A stretch of DNA of 34,072 nucleotides from an uncultured Jannaschia sp. (GTDB lineage: Bacteria; Pseudomonadota; Alphaproteobacteria; Rhodobacterales; Rhodobacteraceae): assembly GCF_947494025.1 (NCBI RefSeq), contig NZ_CANLTQ010000026.1, positions 1-34,072 of the forward strand, read 5' to 3'. The notes beneath the pieces are model-generated. The model searched no databases and was not told the DNA's origin. It saw nothing but the letters and a program-made list of their open reading frames with translations. Each line of letters begins with the position of its first letter. Position 1 is the stretch's first letter. The translations under genes and the position numbers were made by a program. Of the stretch, positions 300-33,647 are shown one piece after another.

Positions 300-480
300 T
301 TGTCTCTGTCGTCTGCGCGTCCGACACCGTGGATGGCCCGTGATATCCGACCGGACCCGATCGGGTCGCGCTTGAACCGCCGCGTTTCGGTTTGTCGCCA
401 TCGATGTCGGGCAGGCGCGGGATGCCACGCCGCCGAGACGGTTCGCTCCGTGATCGATCACACGTTTTCCCCGAACGCCG
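300..480 (-). pseudogene. Strongly decayed IS481-family transposase remnant
   Basis: Read on the minus strand, this stretch contains GIPRLPDIDGDKPKR. That matches the GISRLPDIEGDKPKR segment of the IS481-family transposase at the other end of the window (about 32880-32930). DNA similarity continues for a short way (GGTTCAAGCGCGACCCGATC against GGTTCAAGCGCTACCCCATT) and then fades through indels. Everything before and after this core of the transposase is lost or unrecognisable, so it is an old fragment. Its orientation is opposite to the right-hand copy. Limits are approximate. A 12-bp palindrome, GTGATCGATCAC, lies at 450-461. Confidence 0.7.
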
Positions 481-15679: not shown

Positions 15680-16357
15680 TCAGCCGGCGGTCTTCGCGGC
15701 GACCATCGCGGTCGCGCCGGACATTTCGCCCAGATGGGTGCCATCGGTGATACGCGCCTCATTCATGCGGCCCCGTTCCGTCTTGGTTTCGCCCTGCGAA
15801 AGGACCTCGTCCAGGTCCTCGGGCGCGATGAACAGGACGCCCGAGGGATCCGCGAGGACGGCGTAACCCGGCAGGACCGCGGCACCGCCGATGCTGACCG
15901 GGATGTTGAAGCCGCCGCCGCTGTCGTAGAGGCGCGTCGTCACCGGGGAGGGGCCGCGCGACCAGATCGGGAAACCCTGCTCCTCGACTTCGGCGGTGTC
16001 GGTGTGGGGGCCATCGACGCAGGCGCCCGCGAGACCCATCATCGCGGCCATCCGGGTCACGCCGCCGCCCCAGCAGGCGTATTTGGTGTCGCCCAGCCGG
16101 TCCACGGCCATGAAGTAGCCAGGGCCGGTCTGACTCAGGCAATGATGCAGGAGCGTCGAATCGAGGCCGGGGATCGCCAGTGTCGCCACCGTGGCTGCGA
16201 CGACCTTGCCGGGCAGGACCGGCTGGATCGCGGGATGCGCGAAACCGAAATGGTAGAAATGCCCGATTGTCGCCGTCTCGAGCTTTGCGAGACGGTCGAG
16301 CTTTTCCTGCGGGATGCGCTCGGGCATCGGGTTCAACTTGTAGACGAGGTTCGACAT
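15680..16357 (-). CDS. RraA-like (HMG/CHA aldolase fold) protein
   Basis: 225 aa. Recognised by the glycine-rich core (GGGVTRMAAMMGLAGACVDG), then EEQGFPIWSRGPSPV and PGYAVLADPSGVLFIAP. In class II pyruvate aldolases of this family the motif DGxxRD supplies the Arg that holds pyruvate and the Asp that binds metal. Here the line reads DGPHTD, so the Arg is Thr while the Asp is kept. The activity may therefore differ from a classical aldolase. It lies between dctM (14 bp) and ghrA, so it is part of the catabolic operon. Confidence 0.8.
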   Translation of the reverse strand: MSNLVYKLNPMPERIPQEKLDRLAKLETATIGHFYHFGFAHPAIQPVLPGKVVAATVATLAIPGLDSTLLHHCLSQTGPGYFMAVDRLGDTKYACWGGGVTRMAAMMGLAGACVDGPHTDTAEVEEQGFPIWSRGPSPVTTRLYDSGGGFNIPVSIGGAAVLPGYAVLADPSGVLFIAPEDLDEVLSQGETKTERGRMNEARITDGTHLGEMSGATAMVAAKTAG

Positions 16358-16371
16358 GGACTTAGGTCTCG

Positions 16372-17655
16372 CTATTGAGGGCCGAGGACGAGGTCGGGAA
16401 GGAACGTTGAGATCTGCGGTACATAGGTCAGCAGGATGAGCATCGCGAAGAGCGGCACGAGCATCGGCAGCACAGCCATCGTCACCCTCTCGAACTTCAC
16501 GCGCCCGACCTCGGAGACGATGTAGAGACCGATGCCCATCGGCGGCGTCGCGATGCCGATGAGCAGGCCGAGCTGGATGATGATGCCGAAATGAACGCGG
16601 TCGATTCCGTAGGCGTCGATGATCGGAAGAAGCGTCGGCACGAGGATCAGCTTCGCCGGCACGCCCTCCACGACGCAGCCCACGAGGATGATGAATACCA
16701 GCATCAGCGCCAGGAACACGTTCTTGTTGTCGGTCAGCGAAAAGGTCCAGTCCGCGAGTTTCTGCGGGGTCTGCTCGATGGCGAGAAGCCAGCCCATGGC
16801 GATCGAAAAGGCGATGATGATCATGATGACCGCCGTCATCATCGCCGTCTCGCTCAACGCCTTCATGAAGGCGGCCAAGGTCAGTTCCCGGTACCATAGG
16901 CCGAGGCCGATGCAGTAGATCGAGGCCAGCACCCCCGCCTCGGTGGCGGTGACGAAGCCGACCAGGATCGATCCGAGGATGATGGCGGGCGCCACGAGGG
17001 CAGCCAATCCGTGCCAGGCGGTTCCGGCCACTTCGCGCAGCGAGGCGCGGGGCTGGGTCGGAAAATCCTGGTAGGTGGCCCTGACCCGGATGTAGGCCAT
17101 GAGCGAAAGGCCGACCAGGACGCCGGGAGCGAGACCGGCGAGGAACATGCGCTCGATGGATTGCTGCGCGAGGAACGCGTAGATGACGAGACCGATCGAC
17201 GGAGGGATGAGCGGTCCGATGACCGACGAGACGACGGTGATCGCGGCGGCGAAATCCGCCTTGTAGCCCCGCTCTCGCATGGCCTTGATCTCGATGGCGC
17301 CGAGACCCGCGCAATCGGCGACCGCCGCGCCGGAAATGCCCGCGAAGATCATCGACGACAGCACGTTCACCTGCGCGAGGCCGGCCTTCATGTGTCCGAC
17401 AAGTGCGTTGGCGAAGGCGAAGATACGCTCCGTCACGCCGGTGGCGTTCATCAGGTTGCCAGCCATGATGAAGAACGGCACCGCGGTGAGCGAGGCCTTG
17501 TTCACGCCCTCGAGCATCTGCTGCGGGATGATCTGCAACGCCGTCGAAAAGTCGGAGGTCAGGAAGGTGAGCACGGTCGCCGCCCCGATGGCGATCGAGA
17601 TCGGCACGCGCAGCAGGATGAGGGCGATGAATGCGCCGAACAGGATCCAGGCCAA
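16372..17655 (-). CDS. dctM: TRAP transporter large permease (DctM-like)
   Basis: 427 aa with about 12 membrane helices, the usual size. Typical segments include ALTAVPFFIMAGNLMNATGV-like (here ASLTAVPFFIMAGNLMNATG), SGISGAAVAD-like (FAGISGAAVADCAGLGAIE), SSVIGPLIPPSIGLVIYA and a C-terminal LGLLIGIATPPMGIGLY. It carries the Na+-driven transport path. It starts 3 bp after the small-permease stop. Confidence 0.94.
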   Translation of the reverse strand: MAWILFGAFIALILLRVPISIAIGAATVLTFLTSDFSTALQIIPQQMLEGVNKASLTAVPFFIMAGNLMNATGVTERIFAFANALVGHMKAGLAQVNVLSSMIFAGISGAAVADCAGLGAIEIKAMRERGYKADFAAAITVVSSVIGPLIPPSIGLVIYAFLAQQSIERMFLAGLAPGVLVGLSLMAYIRVRATYQDFPTQPRASLREVAGTAWHGLAALVAPAIILGSILVGFVTATEAGVLASIYCIGLGLWYRELTLAAFMKALSETAMMTAVIMIIIAFSIAMGWLLAIEQTPQKLADWTFSLTDNKNVFLALMLVFIILVGCVVEGVPAKLILVPTLLPIIDAYGIDRVHFGIIIQLGLLIGIATPPMGIGLYIVSEVGRVKFERVTMAVLPMLVPLFAMLILLTYVPQISTFLPDLVLGPQ

Positions 17656-17658
17656 TGC

Positions 17659-18222
17659 TTACAGCTCCGGGTGTTGCGGGCCGACATTCTCCGGCAGCCC
17701 GGCGGCCATCTTCAGAAGGTCGATGATGGCGGCAATGGCGATGAGCGCGGTCGATACGATGAGGGGGATAGAGAGGGCCAGCCGCGGCAGCTCGAACCCG
17801 TCCGGCAGGATCGCGCCGTCGTAGACCCCGCGCGACGTGGCCACGATTGTCTGCACCTGGGACAGCAGCACGCCGGTCACGAGGAGGGTCGCGAGGTTGG
17901 AGATCACCCGCGTGACCGCCATGCCCCAGGTGCCCATCCGTTCGGCCAGAAAGTCGATCCGCACGTCTTTCAGCCGGGCATAGAGTGCGAAGAACCCGAA
18001 GAAGCTGAGCCAGATGAAGAACACCATCGTCCACGGCCACATCCAGTAGGGCGCCATGCCGAGCGGGCGGAGGACGATTGTCGCGGCCGTGAGGCTCAGC
18101 ATGACCAGAAGGCAGGCGTTGGACATCCAGAGGAACACGCCGCCGAGGGTCCAGCTCGTGCGGTCGAGCGCGAGGAGGGTCCGCTGGATCGGACCCTCCC
18201 CGTGCTGCTCGTAGGGCGTCAC
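17659..18222 (-). CDS. dctQ: TRAP transporter small permease (DctQ-like)
   Basis: 187 aa with four predicted helices. The core WPWTMVFFIWLSFFGFFALY and RIDFLAERM are characteristic of DctQ (PF04290). It starts at GTG and overlaps the dctP stop by 4 bp (GTGA), so translation is coupled. It pairs with DctM to form the membrane unit. Confidence 0.9.
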   Translation of the reverse strand: MTPYEQHGEGPIQRTLLALDRTSWTLGGVFLWMSNACLLVMLSLTAATIVLRPLGMAPYWMWPWTMVFFIWLSFFGFFALYARLKDVRIDFLAERMGTWGMAVTRVISNLATLLVTGVLLSQVQTIVATSRGVYDGAILPDGFELPRLALSIPLIVSTALIAIAAIIDLLKMAAGLPENVGPQHPEL

Positions 18223-19214
18223 GAGTCGGAGGCCCGCGCCGCTTCGATCGCTTCGAGGAATCCGTCCGGCAACGCCCCGGAGGCGGCCATCTCATCGTAG
18301 TAGGTTTGCATCTTCTCGACGAGGGGGGCGGTGTCGAGGACGGTGTAGGTCGCGCCGTCCGCTTCCATGTCGGCGATGCTCTTGTCGGCGACGCTCGACA
18401 TAAGTTCCTGCGATTCCGTACCCGCCTCGTCATATGCCCGCATCAGGCCCGCGCGCGTCTCCTTCGACAGGTCGTTCAGCGCGGCCTCGTTCACCATGAA
18501 GCCGACCGATTGCCAGTATTCGTCGTGACGCGTGATGTAAGGCGCAACCTCGTTGAACCGCATCGATTCCACGAGCGCGATCGGCGAGTTGACGGCCTCG
18601 ACGATGCCCTTCTGGATGCCTTGGTAGACCTCGGTCCAAGGCAACGTGATGACCTCCGCGCCGAGATGGTCCCACGTCTCGATCGCGACCTTGTTCTCGT
18701 GCATCCGTATCTTGACGCCTTCGATCGCCTCGGCGGATTCGACGGGCACATTCGAGACCATCACCCGGAACGGTCCGCGCAGGATGCGCGTGGGGTCGCC
18801 CAGGGGTCGCACGCCGGATTGCTCGGCGGCGCTGTCGAACCAGGCGTCGACCGTGTCGGAGGTCATGAACCGCTGCCAGTGGTCGTAATCGTCGAAGGCG
18901 AAGGGCGCCGAGAGCCAAGCGAGCGCCGGCTCCCACTTCTTCATGTAGCCGAAGCCTTCCGCATAGATCTGGATGATGTTGGCCTGAAGCTGCTCGAGGA
19001 CCGCGTCTTCCTTTCCGAGCTGCTCGTTCGGGAAGACCTGAACGACCAGTTCGCCATTCGTGTATTCCTCCGTCAGGTCGGCGAAGAGTTCGAATATCTG
19101 ACCTTCGGGGCTATCCACGGGTTGCTTCGTCGCCATGCGCCAGGTCGTCTCTGCGTGCGCATTCGAAGTTGCCGCGAACGCAAAGGCTGTCGCGAACCAG
19201 ATCGAACGAATCAT
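18219..19214 (-). CDS. dctP: TRAP transporter substrate-binding protein (DctP-like)
   Basis: 331 aa. A signal peptide (MIRSIWFATAFAFAATSNAHA) is followed by a DctP domain with FPNEQLGKEDAVLEQLQ. The ligand-binding Arg region is probably RVMVSNVPVESAEAIEGVKIRM and the conserved late Asn is in EAVNSPIALVES. It binds an organic acid in the periplasm; the exact ligand cannot be read. GAGAGGAT lies before ATG 19214. It is first in the operon and divergent from gntR. Confidence 0.92.
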   Translation of the reverse strand: MIRSIWFATAFAFAATSNAHAETTWRMATKQPVDSPEGQIFELFADLTEEYTNGELVVQVFPNEQLGKEDAVLEQLQANIIQIYAEGFGYMKKWEPALAWLSAPFAFDDYDHWQRFMTSDTVDAWFDSAAEQSGVRPLGDPTRILRGPFRVMVSNVPVESAEAIEGVKIRMHENKVAIETWDHLGAEVITLPWTEVYQGIQKGIVEAVNSPIALVESMRFNEVAPYITRHDEYWQSVGFMVNEAALNDLSKETRAGLMRAYDEAGTESQELMSSVADKSIADMEADGATYTVLDTAPLVEKMQTYYDEMAASGALPDGFLEAIEAARASDS

Positions 19215-32265: not shown

Positions 32266-32510
32266 GCAACAGGGCTACGACGAAGATGACGACCGGTGGG
32301 AACATGGCGCCGACCCGGGGGTTGGCGGCGATACGTTTGTCGACGCCGACGTCCCGATCGGCGATCCGCTCCGGGGCGAGCAGGGAAGGGCGGACGGCGT
32401 GTCACCGACCCAATCGTCCATGCCGGGGTCTCGACTGCATTCGAGCGATCTAGCTGTTCGATCCCACGGTTTGATGGTGTGATCGTTTCGAGGGAATGGA
32501 AGGAGGCACT
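32266..32510. other. Unassigned stretch before the transposase
   Basis: Open frames exist on both strands but none matches a family. It should contain the left end of the IS481-type element; I could not fix the terminal inverted repeat. GGAAGGAGGCACT just before 32511 is the transposase ribosome site. Confidence 0.35.
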
Positions 32511-32540
32511 ATGGGGCAGGTTCGTCACGGGAGCGCCACG

Positions 32541-32587
32541 TCCTGTTACCTGGCAGGCGATTTGCATGGCAAATCTGCCGGGAGGGC
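32541..32587 (+). repeat. Hairpin insertion 1 in the transposase
   Basis: 47 bp of extra sequence between codons for GSAT and THAV. The core is GATTTGC-ATG-GCAAATC (32559-32575), extended by GGCA/TGCC after a 3-nt bulge. Flanks read CCTGGCAGG on the left and CCGGGAGGG on the right. It changes the reading frame. Confidence 0.75.
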
Positions 32588-33139
32588 ACGCACGCCGTCC
32601 GAGCGGCGATACAGCGATCGCAAGCTTCGCTCTCGCAGCTGAGCCAGGAGCTGGGTATCAATCCGAAGACGGTCGCGAAGTGGCGGAAGCGGGCGACAGT
32701 CGAGGACATGAAGACTGGCCCGAAGGAGCCGCGCTCGACGGTCCTGACCGAGGCGGAAGAAGCAATGATCGTCGCATTCCGTCGTCACACGCTACTGCCG
32801 CTGGACGACTGCCTTTATGCTCTGCAGCCAACGATCCCGCACCTGACGCGTTCGGCGCTGCACCGTTGCCTGCTACGACACGGGATCTCTCGCCTGCCCG
32901 ACATCGAGGGGGACAAACCGAAGCGGCAGCGGTTCAAGCGCTACCCCATTGGGTTCTTCCACATTGATATCGCCGAGGTGCAGACTGCCGAGGGCAAGCT
33001 CTATCTTTTCGTGGGCATTGACCGCACAGCCAAGTTCGCCGTCACCCAGCTGGTTGAGAAGGCCGACAGGCGCACCGCCTGAGAGTTCCTGCAGCACATG
33101 CTCGAGGTCGTGCCCTACCAGGTCCACACGATCCTGACC

Positions 33140-33180
33140 CCCTCACGGGACATCACTGCGTGATGCCCTGTCGGGCAATG
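33140..33180 (-). repeat. Hairpin insertion 2 in the transposase
   Basis: 41 bp between HTILT and DNRIQF. Stem GGG-a-CATCAC (33147-33156), loop TGC, GTGATGCCC (33160-33168): nine pairs with one bulged A. Read on the minus strand its flanks are CCCGACAGG and CCGTGAGGG, close to those of insertion 1, while the stem arms differ. Confidence 0.75.
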
Positions 33181-33309
33181 GACAACCGCATCCAGTTCGC
33201 AGAGCAACCGAGAAACCGGAACACCGTCCTCTCCCGGCCGATGCGCTTCGACATGATCTGCGACGCCAACGGGATCGAGCGCCGGCTTGCGAAGCCCAAC
33301 CATCCGTGG

Positions 33310-33351
33310 AGTTTGGAGGATCAGAAAACAGTCCGGGGGAGTGTTTTCCCG
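33310..33351 (+). repeat. Hairpin insertion 3 in the transposase (in frame)
   Basis: 42 bp between HPW and TNRQVE, adding 14 codons (SLEDQKTVRGSVFP) with no stop. Stem GAAAACA-g-TCC, loop GGG, GGA-g-TGTTTTC (33324-33348): seven plus three pairs around one mismatch. An outer GTTTG/CAAAC pair is also possible. Confidence 0.75.
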
Positions 33352-33393
33352 ACAAACCGCCAAGTCGAGCGGATGAGCCGCACAATCAAGGAC

Positions 33394-33433
33394 GGTGAGG
33401 CCCAAAGCCGATCCGGGGGATCGGCGACGGCTG
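33394..33433 (+). repeat. Hairpin insertion 4 in the transposase
   Basis: About 37-40 bp between IKD and TVKHFHY. Perfect stem GCCGATCC (33407-33414), loop GGG, GGATCGGC (33418-33425). The centre TCCGGGGGA is identical to that of insertion 3. It changes the frame. Confidence 0.75.
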
Positions 33434-33647
33434 ACCGTCAAGCACTTCCACTACGACAGCCATGATCACCTGCGGACCCACCTCGACGACTTCATGGCCG
33501 CTTACAACTTCGCCCGGCGGCTCAAGACCCTCGGCGGCCTCACGTCCTACGAATACATCTGCAGGATCCGGACCTCAGAGCCGGATCGATTCATCCTCAA
33601 CCCGATCCACCAAATGCCGGGACTGAACACCTAGGGTCGCCAACGTG

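Follow-up and report, generated by a model that had tools for sequence, protein, structure and literature searches.

Four hairpin-forming segments interrupt an IS481 transposase gene of an uncultured Jannaschia sp., and it is probable (about 0.7) that they are short non-autonomous mobile hairpins of Rhodobacterales, which invade mostly transposase genes and inactivate IS copies. That such palindromes could be non-autonomous and mobile had been proposed by a sequence-only reading of the same DNA. This proposal is supported by empty sites and by copy number, from which we infer that the hairpins move. The phenomenon is real and little noticed.

Four inserts in one IS481 transposase gene

The window, that is the whole stretch of DNA analysed (34,072 nucleotides), is an entire contig (C26) of a 4.39 Mb genome assembled in 215 contigs. 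The interrupted IS481-family transposase pseudogene is located on the plus strand at 32496..33634, these limits being the span that matches the open reading frame of L004, an uninterrupted copy on contig C4 of the same genome (324-aa ORF) typed as IS481 by NCBIfam NF033577 (E 6.8e-82). A second uninterrupted copy, L005 (328-aa ORF), is found on contig C37 and has its own in-frame duplication of 12 bases at another place. When the window copy was aligned with L004 and L005, four insertion points were observed and no further indel of 12 bases or more, with net gains of 44, 41, 42 and 37 bases at sites 1 to 4; all but one of these disrupt the reading frame. This confirmed the earlier claim that four hairpin segments interrupt one IS481 gene, and the alignment to intact copies, which had been proposed as a check, showed that the segments are missing from the intact relatives. 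The sole further disabling change noticed, from reading frames and alignment, is an in-frame TGA at a tryptophan codon (33080..33082, plus strand). Substitutions between the window copy and L004 number 26, 16 and 106 at codon positions 1, 2 and 3, and since they are mainly in third position, the divergence of the window copy is probably mostly older than the inserts.

Site 1 (32543..32586, plus strand, net +44), missing from L004 and L005, is a decayed long-stem member of family A, which reached 20.1 bits with model R1 (E 2e-4) in an unfiltered local scan and stands outside the 58 genome-scale matches reported below; its layout matches that of the copies C37_20930 and C38_185. Site 2 (33140..33180, minus strand) is a family A copy of 41 bp, opposite in orientation to site 1, which lies between the codon of T and those of DNGIQF. 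Its score of 59.2 bits is to be read in the knowledge that it is one of the R1 training sequences, and comparison with L004 and L005 showed that its target bases were not duplicated. At site 3 (33309..33350, plus strand, net +42), a family B copy with edges ambiguous by a few bases gave 65.6 bits with model R2 at 33313-33353, being likewise one of the training sequences of that model; the same point is also occupied in G007, G012:C7 and L060. Site 4 (33395..33431, plus strand, net +37) holds a divergent B-like element, GTGAGG...TCCGGGGGA...CGAC, of which R2 fits the hairpin core alone (33408-33424, 14.7 bits), the ends being similar to those of family B. A similar copy is present at this point in G012:C7. 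The TCCGGGGGA loop by itself showed no enrichment within the window. Thus, of the proposal of four separate palindromes, the separate insertions stand, but the palindromes are not unrelated, sites 1 and 2 belonging to family A, site 3 to family B and site 4 to a B-like form.

Each insert folds into a hairpin, with DNA-fold z-scores of -2.6, -1.6, -2.7 and -3.8 for sites 1 to 4. Site 2 is weak on its fold alone, because 14 of 200 shuffles fold equally well; by its sequence, however, it belongs fully to family A, for which 58 matches are known.

Two other features of the window were recorded. Near the opposite end of the contig, a short IS481-like fragment (355-433, minus strand) is 81% identical to part of the intact gene. 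At 18171-18202, a 12-pair hairpin with one mismatch lies within a long minus-strand ORF (15680-18433) and was assigned to neither family.

Sequence and structure of the hairpin families

Family A elements are about 41 bp long and read CACTGCCCGGCAG-stem-loop-stem-GAGAGGG, with the layout CACTG-CCC-GGCA-[stem]-loop-[stem']-GAGA-GGG. The length is 41 bp in 35 of the 58 copies of the own genome, and both orientations are found. Family B has the layout GAGGRTCAG-[stem]-TCCGGNGGA-[stem']-CCCGAC. Model R1 was built from six ungapped 41-base copies, a training set without window site 1, L110_421, L113_421, L151_475, L147_420, L019, L024, L097 and others, and R2 from five copies; the E-values of both are rough.

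The arms of family A covary strongly. Among 103 aligned copies (87 distinct), 96.9% of the cells were paired and 148 cells were doubly changed, where shuffles gave 33 and slid controls no more than 22; the alignment was fitted to the model and is biased towards its structure. All eight inner pairs were changed on both sides, and the stems fall into discrete subtypes. When the window, L158, L188 and L191 were scanned with Rfam at the gathering score, only a tRNA in L188 was found, and identity with a known RNA family was rejected on this ground.

The IS481 comparison comprised 80 public loci, eight of them with palindromic inserts, plus loci of relatives. A further hairpin, family D (ATGAGGGCTGGCCCGCCATCGGTCCGAGGG...CCCGAAT), was found at IS481 site 120-126 in L085 (Paracoccus albicereus), L095 (P. 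onchidii) and L100 (Alkalilacustris brevis). L030, a near-identical sister copy of L085, has the empty site. Other palindromic inserts (CCTGTCCTGAGC...GAAGGG; GATTGATCCGGGGGATCAATC) are carried by IS481 copies L096 and L105 of Sphingomonas and L093 of an alphaproteobacterial MAG. Since these IS481 copies lie beyond Rhodobacterales, the palindrome habit may be wider.

Copy number and distribution

The own genome (4.4 Mb) contains 58 family A matches at E<=0.01 and 65 at E<=1. At E<=0.05, the family was found in 33 of 100 genomes with more than 300 matches overall: 17 of 20 genomes of the genus (own included) and 14 of 40 others of the family, that is 31 of 60, together with two of 40 genomes beyond the family, where the matches were weak. 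The genome search that had been suggested for the single units thus revealed many more copies, both in the genome and in its relatives.

Among plasmids, family A was detected in 97 PLSDB records, and the genera named in that result are ones that we take to be Rhodobacterales. Among the 60 matches listed (of 97 records), 54 fell in no annotated feature, two in a hypothetical protein, two in an IS3 transposase and two in unannotated records, the PLSDB gene table being one without pseudogenes. The phage collection gave no family A match, and a phage origin was dropped.

Family B is present in 18 of 60 genomes, the own genome contributing ten matches at E<=0.01. A composite query retrieved it from 30 plasmid records, 21 of which are Paracoccus. 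Family B copies adjoin family A copies in G012, in G018 and in the own genome.

Transposase genes as the main address

Transposase sequence borders each of the 58 family A copies of the own genome on one side or both, as judged by eye on conceptual translations with the libraries as backing. The hosts are mainly IS5, but also IS3, IS256, IS66 and one IS481, and three copies have chimeric flanks; the 50 copies uncut by an IS present 23 distinct flanks. When 105 flank pieces were compared with NCBIfam, where one piece may match several families, IS5_2 was matched by 28, IS3 by 14, IS481 by 10, IS256 by 8, and IS66, IS1182 and ISH6 by 4 each, with smaller ones in addition. Matches other than transposases (tyrosine recombinases, ZnuA, two regulators and a restriction protein) concerned one piece each, and Pfam concurred in finding mostly transposases. 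The frames of the pieces were picked by third-position G+C; as this choice is sometimes wrong, some pieces match nothing. For 58 random places (115 pieces; 113 Pfam and 877 NCBIfam families), drawn from 20 selected stretches and not from the whole genome, no transposase appeared among the 25 families listed per library.

A transposase context, again assigned by eye, was found for 24 of 25 copies in G009, 12 of 14 in G032 (where two IS3 forms, each amplified, make up ten), 24 of 29 in relatives and 14 of 17 for family B. The copies outside recognised transposases are accordingly one of 25, two of 14, five of 29 and three of 17. The counts in the own genome and their replicates therefore indicate that transposase genes are the main, not the sole, address. 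The sequence-only reading had overlooked both this address and the grouping into two families.

The three family A copies with chimeric flanks (C19:13657, C39:9381 and C75:282, in L166, L164 and L165) join, for example, the left side of IS5 site 591 to the right side of site 367, which suggests that parts of IS copies are deleted or fused when the copies recombine. In addition, an IS that was collapsed in the assembly (end TATCCGTGATGATC / TATCCGTGATGATCAAGC) borders family A copies: ten of ten detected ends lie at GAG^AGGG within the hairpin, on contigs C1, C6, C23, C27, C34, C50, C60, C61, C70 and C75, which end in this IS. Two of the ten IS-cut copies score above E 0.01. It looks as if the collapsed IS targets family A hairpins; its end had no match in the plasmid collection.

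Target site and joining

In order to describe the target, near-identical flanks were merged (from 79 to 44) and eight IS-truncated copies were left out of the target logo. The preferred entry of family A is YRTC^G, that is behind (C/T)(A/G)TC and before G. Upstream, 24 of the 44 distinct flanks end in YRTC, compared with 0.84 expected, the commonest words being CGTC (9), CATC (6) and TGTC (6). A G follows in 34 of 44, and both features are combined in 17 of 44 (0.34 expected). Compared with known empty sites, family A duplicates no target bases, and one or two bases may be lost. Joining is not always exact, since an IS5 site may grow by anything from 37 to 42 bases. In families B and D, the insert takes the place of 2-5 target bases (4-5 in L085 and L095), and these two families may move differently from A.

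No special hairpin was found at the targets (mean percentile 0.50-0.57), nor an excess of inverted repeats (p 0.43), and the idea of a hairpin or inverted repeat as a lure was dropped. The YRTC preference leaves the choice of the particular entry points unaccounted for.

Recurrence of inserts at the same points

In IS481, the occupied points are reference positions 93-96, 129, 421, 777 and 120-126, and their carriers stand apart among empty relatives in a tree from which L138, L139, L153 and L154 were excluded as too short. In IS5, family A copies of the own and other genomes occupy points 95, 191, 367, 591 and 803, with one orientation at each; points 444 and 885 hold one copy each. Another palindromic insert, 61-62 bp long (GGTGAAGGGCGTC...GGCGGAGCCC), occupies one and the same IS5 point, site 197-198, in L292 and L294/L196 (G010, G004).

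For 37 IS5 copies, the IQ-TREE phylogeny required at least 3, 5, 9, 8 and 3 changes at points 95, 191, 367, 591 and 803, on a tree in which 17 of 34 inner branches are weak, with inserts counted only if 37-43 bases long and duplicate loci omitted. With FastTree, the least changes were 3, 7, 11, 8 and 5, which is near shuffled labels at 367, 591 and 803; the count at 191 includes one false entry, a 62-base foreign insert in G010_C12. The AU test rejected the carriers as one clade at 191 (p 7e-17), 367 (p 3e-4) and 591 (p 1e-60). These trees do not separate repeated gain from clean loss, but the filling of the same transposase points in copies that fail to group as one clade lends support to the separate entry of the palindromes that had been claimed.

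Within 40 bases of the sites, carriers showed no clear excess of identity (mean difference relative to empty pairs -0.03 to +0.02, duplicates omitted). Short-tract gene conversion is weakened as an explanation, the carriers being not clearly more alike near the sites. In the own genome, IS5 sites 95, 191, 591 and 803 each tend to hold one stem subtype; this association speaks against simple random insertion, which does not predict it.

Fate of the interrupted genes

An IS5 copy on contig C9 contains three inserts. Its 313 compared codons are without in-frame stop, and one small frameshift is present. It is 98.3% identical to the copy on C34, with 8, 5 and 6 differences at codon positions 1, 2 and 3, and it differs from G012_C68, with which it has two inserts in common, by 15, 15 and 24. 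For the uninterrupted pair L004-L005, the corresponding values are 10, 3 and 71. Since the insert-sharing trio differs nearly evenly across codon positions, selection on the protein is weak or absent once the inserts are in place, and given so little codon constraint, bypassing or splicing of the inserts is unlikely. The window copy and G012:C7, which have two occupied sites in common, differ by 17, 20 and 46; as third-position differences still dominate here, these values may reflect divergence older than the inserts. Interrupted IS copies can still multiply, presumably with transposase supplied in trans.

Candidate enzymes

The own genome gave no match to PF01797 (Y1/RAYT, IS200-type), and a resident Y1/RAYT was dropped as its mover. 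This family also had no match in most rich carriers of family A, nor in G009, G017, G021 and G032, and was matched in 17 of 100 genomes. In a comparison of 36 genomes from the family, the five that match PF01797 have 8, 61, 23, 21 and 2 family A copies, a higher number than the others (p 0.009), and those with PF04986 (IS91) have 59, 61, 23, 15 and 21, again higher (p 0.0005); IS load is a likely confounder of both associations. G012 and G018 have only partial Y1 matches; that of G018 has family A copies close by on its contig, as if it were a victim. L318 and L319, which contain the two best-scoring PF04986 matches, had no family A element at E<=0.01. Family A copies adjoin broken IS91 copies in L321, L322 and L327. 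IS91 is weakened as the mover by the lack of family A ends at L318 and L319 and by the probable influence of IS load on its association.

Discussion

According to the mechanism that we favour, the element would move as a folded single strand and would be joined behind a short target word, as is done by HUH-type enzymes (IS200/IS605, REP/RAYT-like). The moving enzyme might be supplied in trans, be unrecognised or have been lost. Both a preference for transposase genes and the tolerance of inserts there would contribute to the excess, and the net outcome would be the inactivation of IS copies by the hairpins.

A serious alternative, to which we give somewhat less than even odds, is that transposase genes are a passive refuge: the hairpins would insert anywhere by a mechanism without preference, and survive mainly where the gene is dispensable. 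Transposase genes are indeed dispensable and multi-copy, amplified interrupted IS inflate the counts (six near-identical IS3 in G032; 98.3% identity between the C9 and C34 copies), and a few copies do lie outside recognised transposases. However, ordinary REPs are mostly intergenic in the available part of PMC3733652, so that intergenic DNA usually tolerates such repeats, and the presence of all 58 own copies at or in transposases (a raw count, unscaled to genome shares) is joined by the recurrence of the same points. This recurrence could also be obtained from few original insertions, if each site had been entered once and IS transposition, horizontal transfer and recombination between IS copies had then spread the insert, which we regard as rather unlikely. 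The tracking of site by stem subtype in the own genome would agree with such a history, as would the amplification of interrupted copies and the recombination documented by the chimeric flanks of C19_13657, C39_9381 and C75_282, but one-clade carriers are rejected at three IS5 sites, identity among the carriers does not clearly rise within 40 bases of the site, differing stem subtypes are found at one site, and the family D insert of L085 is missing from its near-identical sister L030.

Mobilisation of REP elements by a resident RAYT or Y1 transposase would explain small hairpins with no target duplication and a preferred tetranucleotide at one end, and would fit the greater family A content of the five PF01797 genomes of 36 (p 0.009). 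It is doubtful in view of the own genome with its 58 copies and of G009, G017, G021 and G032, none of which matches PF01797; moreover, there is no GTAG tag, the address is not intergenic and the Y1 matches of G012 and G018 are partial. That the inserts are skipped by bypassing or splicing, or tolerated in frame, the transposase still working, appears very improbable. Genes are often open apart from their inserts, as for C9 with three inserts, no stop in 313 codons and one small frameshift, and the single +42 family B inserts of L060 and L051 could be compatible in sequence with in-frame tolerance. Against this stand the about even differences between insert-sharing copies (8/5/6 and 15/15/24), the length of 41 bp in 35 of 58 family A copies, the occurrence of both orientations and the frame shift caused by three of the four window inserts.

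The invading hairpins of our preferred reading resemble minute parasites of other mobile DNA, or brakes on it, and active targeting of transposons is possible. In a speculative extension, which we consider improbable, they would form an anti-transposon system: an enzyme would put folded hairpins at fixed points in the transposases of many IS families, hairpin insertion would be the main form of IS silencing, stem subtypes may pick the site, and alphaproteobacterial CGTC REPs may be marks of the same YRTC-directed enzyme. Orphan palindromic repeats for which no mover is known are already on record, among them the CGTC REPs in the available part of PMC3733652. The question of the mover becomes testable here, because family A has more than 300 matches and known empty sites, prefers a target that can be read, and enters at points that recur. 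If true, our reading would point to an overlooked layer of conflict, in which tiny elements exploit transposons or the host uses such a device to break transposases, and it may account for many degenerate transposase annotations in Rhodobacterales.

Comparison with known systems

Several mobile hairpins resemble family A in part. The mobile bypassing elements of yeast mitochondria are hairpins of about 40 bp inside genes; unlike them, family A shows no sign of bypassing in its carriers. The PATEs of haloarchaea are non-autonomous IS200/IS605 remnants, whereas no parent IS200/IS605 element was found here. The insertion of family A resembles that of IS200/IS605 in part: 24 of 44 flanks end in YRTC, a G comes next in 34, target bases are not duplicated and the hairpin covaries. 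The target word varies, however, and one or two bases may be lost. Unlike the MITEs of DDE transposons, family A shows no target-site duplication at the sites compared with empty ones.

The palindromic elements of Rickettsia are palindromes inside alphaproteobacterial protein genes. The parallel with Rickettsia and Wolbachia drawn by the sequence-only reading holds insofar as short palindromes are found inside genes, but goes no further: the Rickettsia elements are in frame and compatible with function, whereas family A is mostly frame-shifting and lies in transposase genes, which then lose constraint, and the window inserts of +44, +41 and +37 shift the frame. The Rickettsia elements are also named in the available part of PMC3733652.

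As described in that part (Di Nocera et al. 2013, PMC3733652), CGTC REPs are imperfect palindromes of 20-40 bp, mostly from alphaproteobacteria and without known transposase, with an unpaired CGTC (or TGTC) at one end that is counted within the repeat, stems that start with AT, and a CCA tail; they are mostly intergenic, and ties to other transposase genes are few and fortuitous. The available text makes no mention of Rhodobacter, Paracoccus, Roseobacter, Ruegeria or Silicibacter. Like these REPs, family A elements are small orphan palindromes, often placed behind CGTC, CATC or TGTC. Unlike them as so described, the YRTC of family A pre-exists in the empty target, the ends differ (no AT stem start, no CCA tail), and the elements are housed in transposase genes (58 of 58 own copies). 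In the literature covered, from which subscription papers were mostly absent, we found neither families A and B described nor any palindromes said to be concentrated in transposase genes.

With the GTAG REPs and REPINs that are served by RAYT, as presented in the available parts of PMC8266576 and PMC2817692, family A has in common the non-autonomous hairpin and an insertion of single-strand type, but its ends (CACTG...GAGAGGG) are without GTAG foot and its own genome is without PF01797. Insertion sequences also target REPs (Tobes and Pareja 2006, PMC1525189, in its available part), a situation to which the IS with end TATCCGTGATGATC, found at one fixed point in ten family A copies, can be compared; unlike in the system described there, the hairpins themselves sit here inside the transposases of other IS. 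The best reading of families A and B is that they are orphan REP-like elements housed in transposon genes, which is new relative to described REPs.
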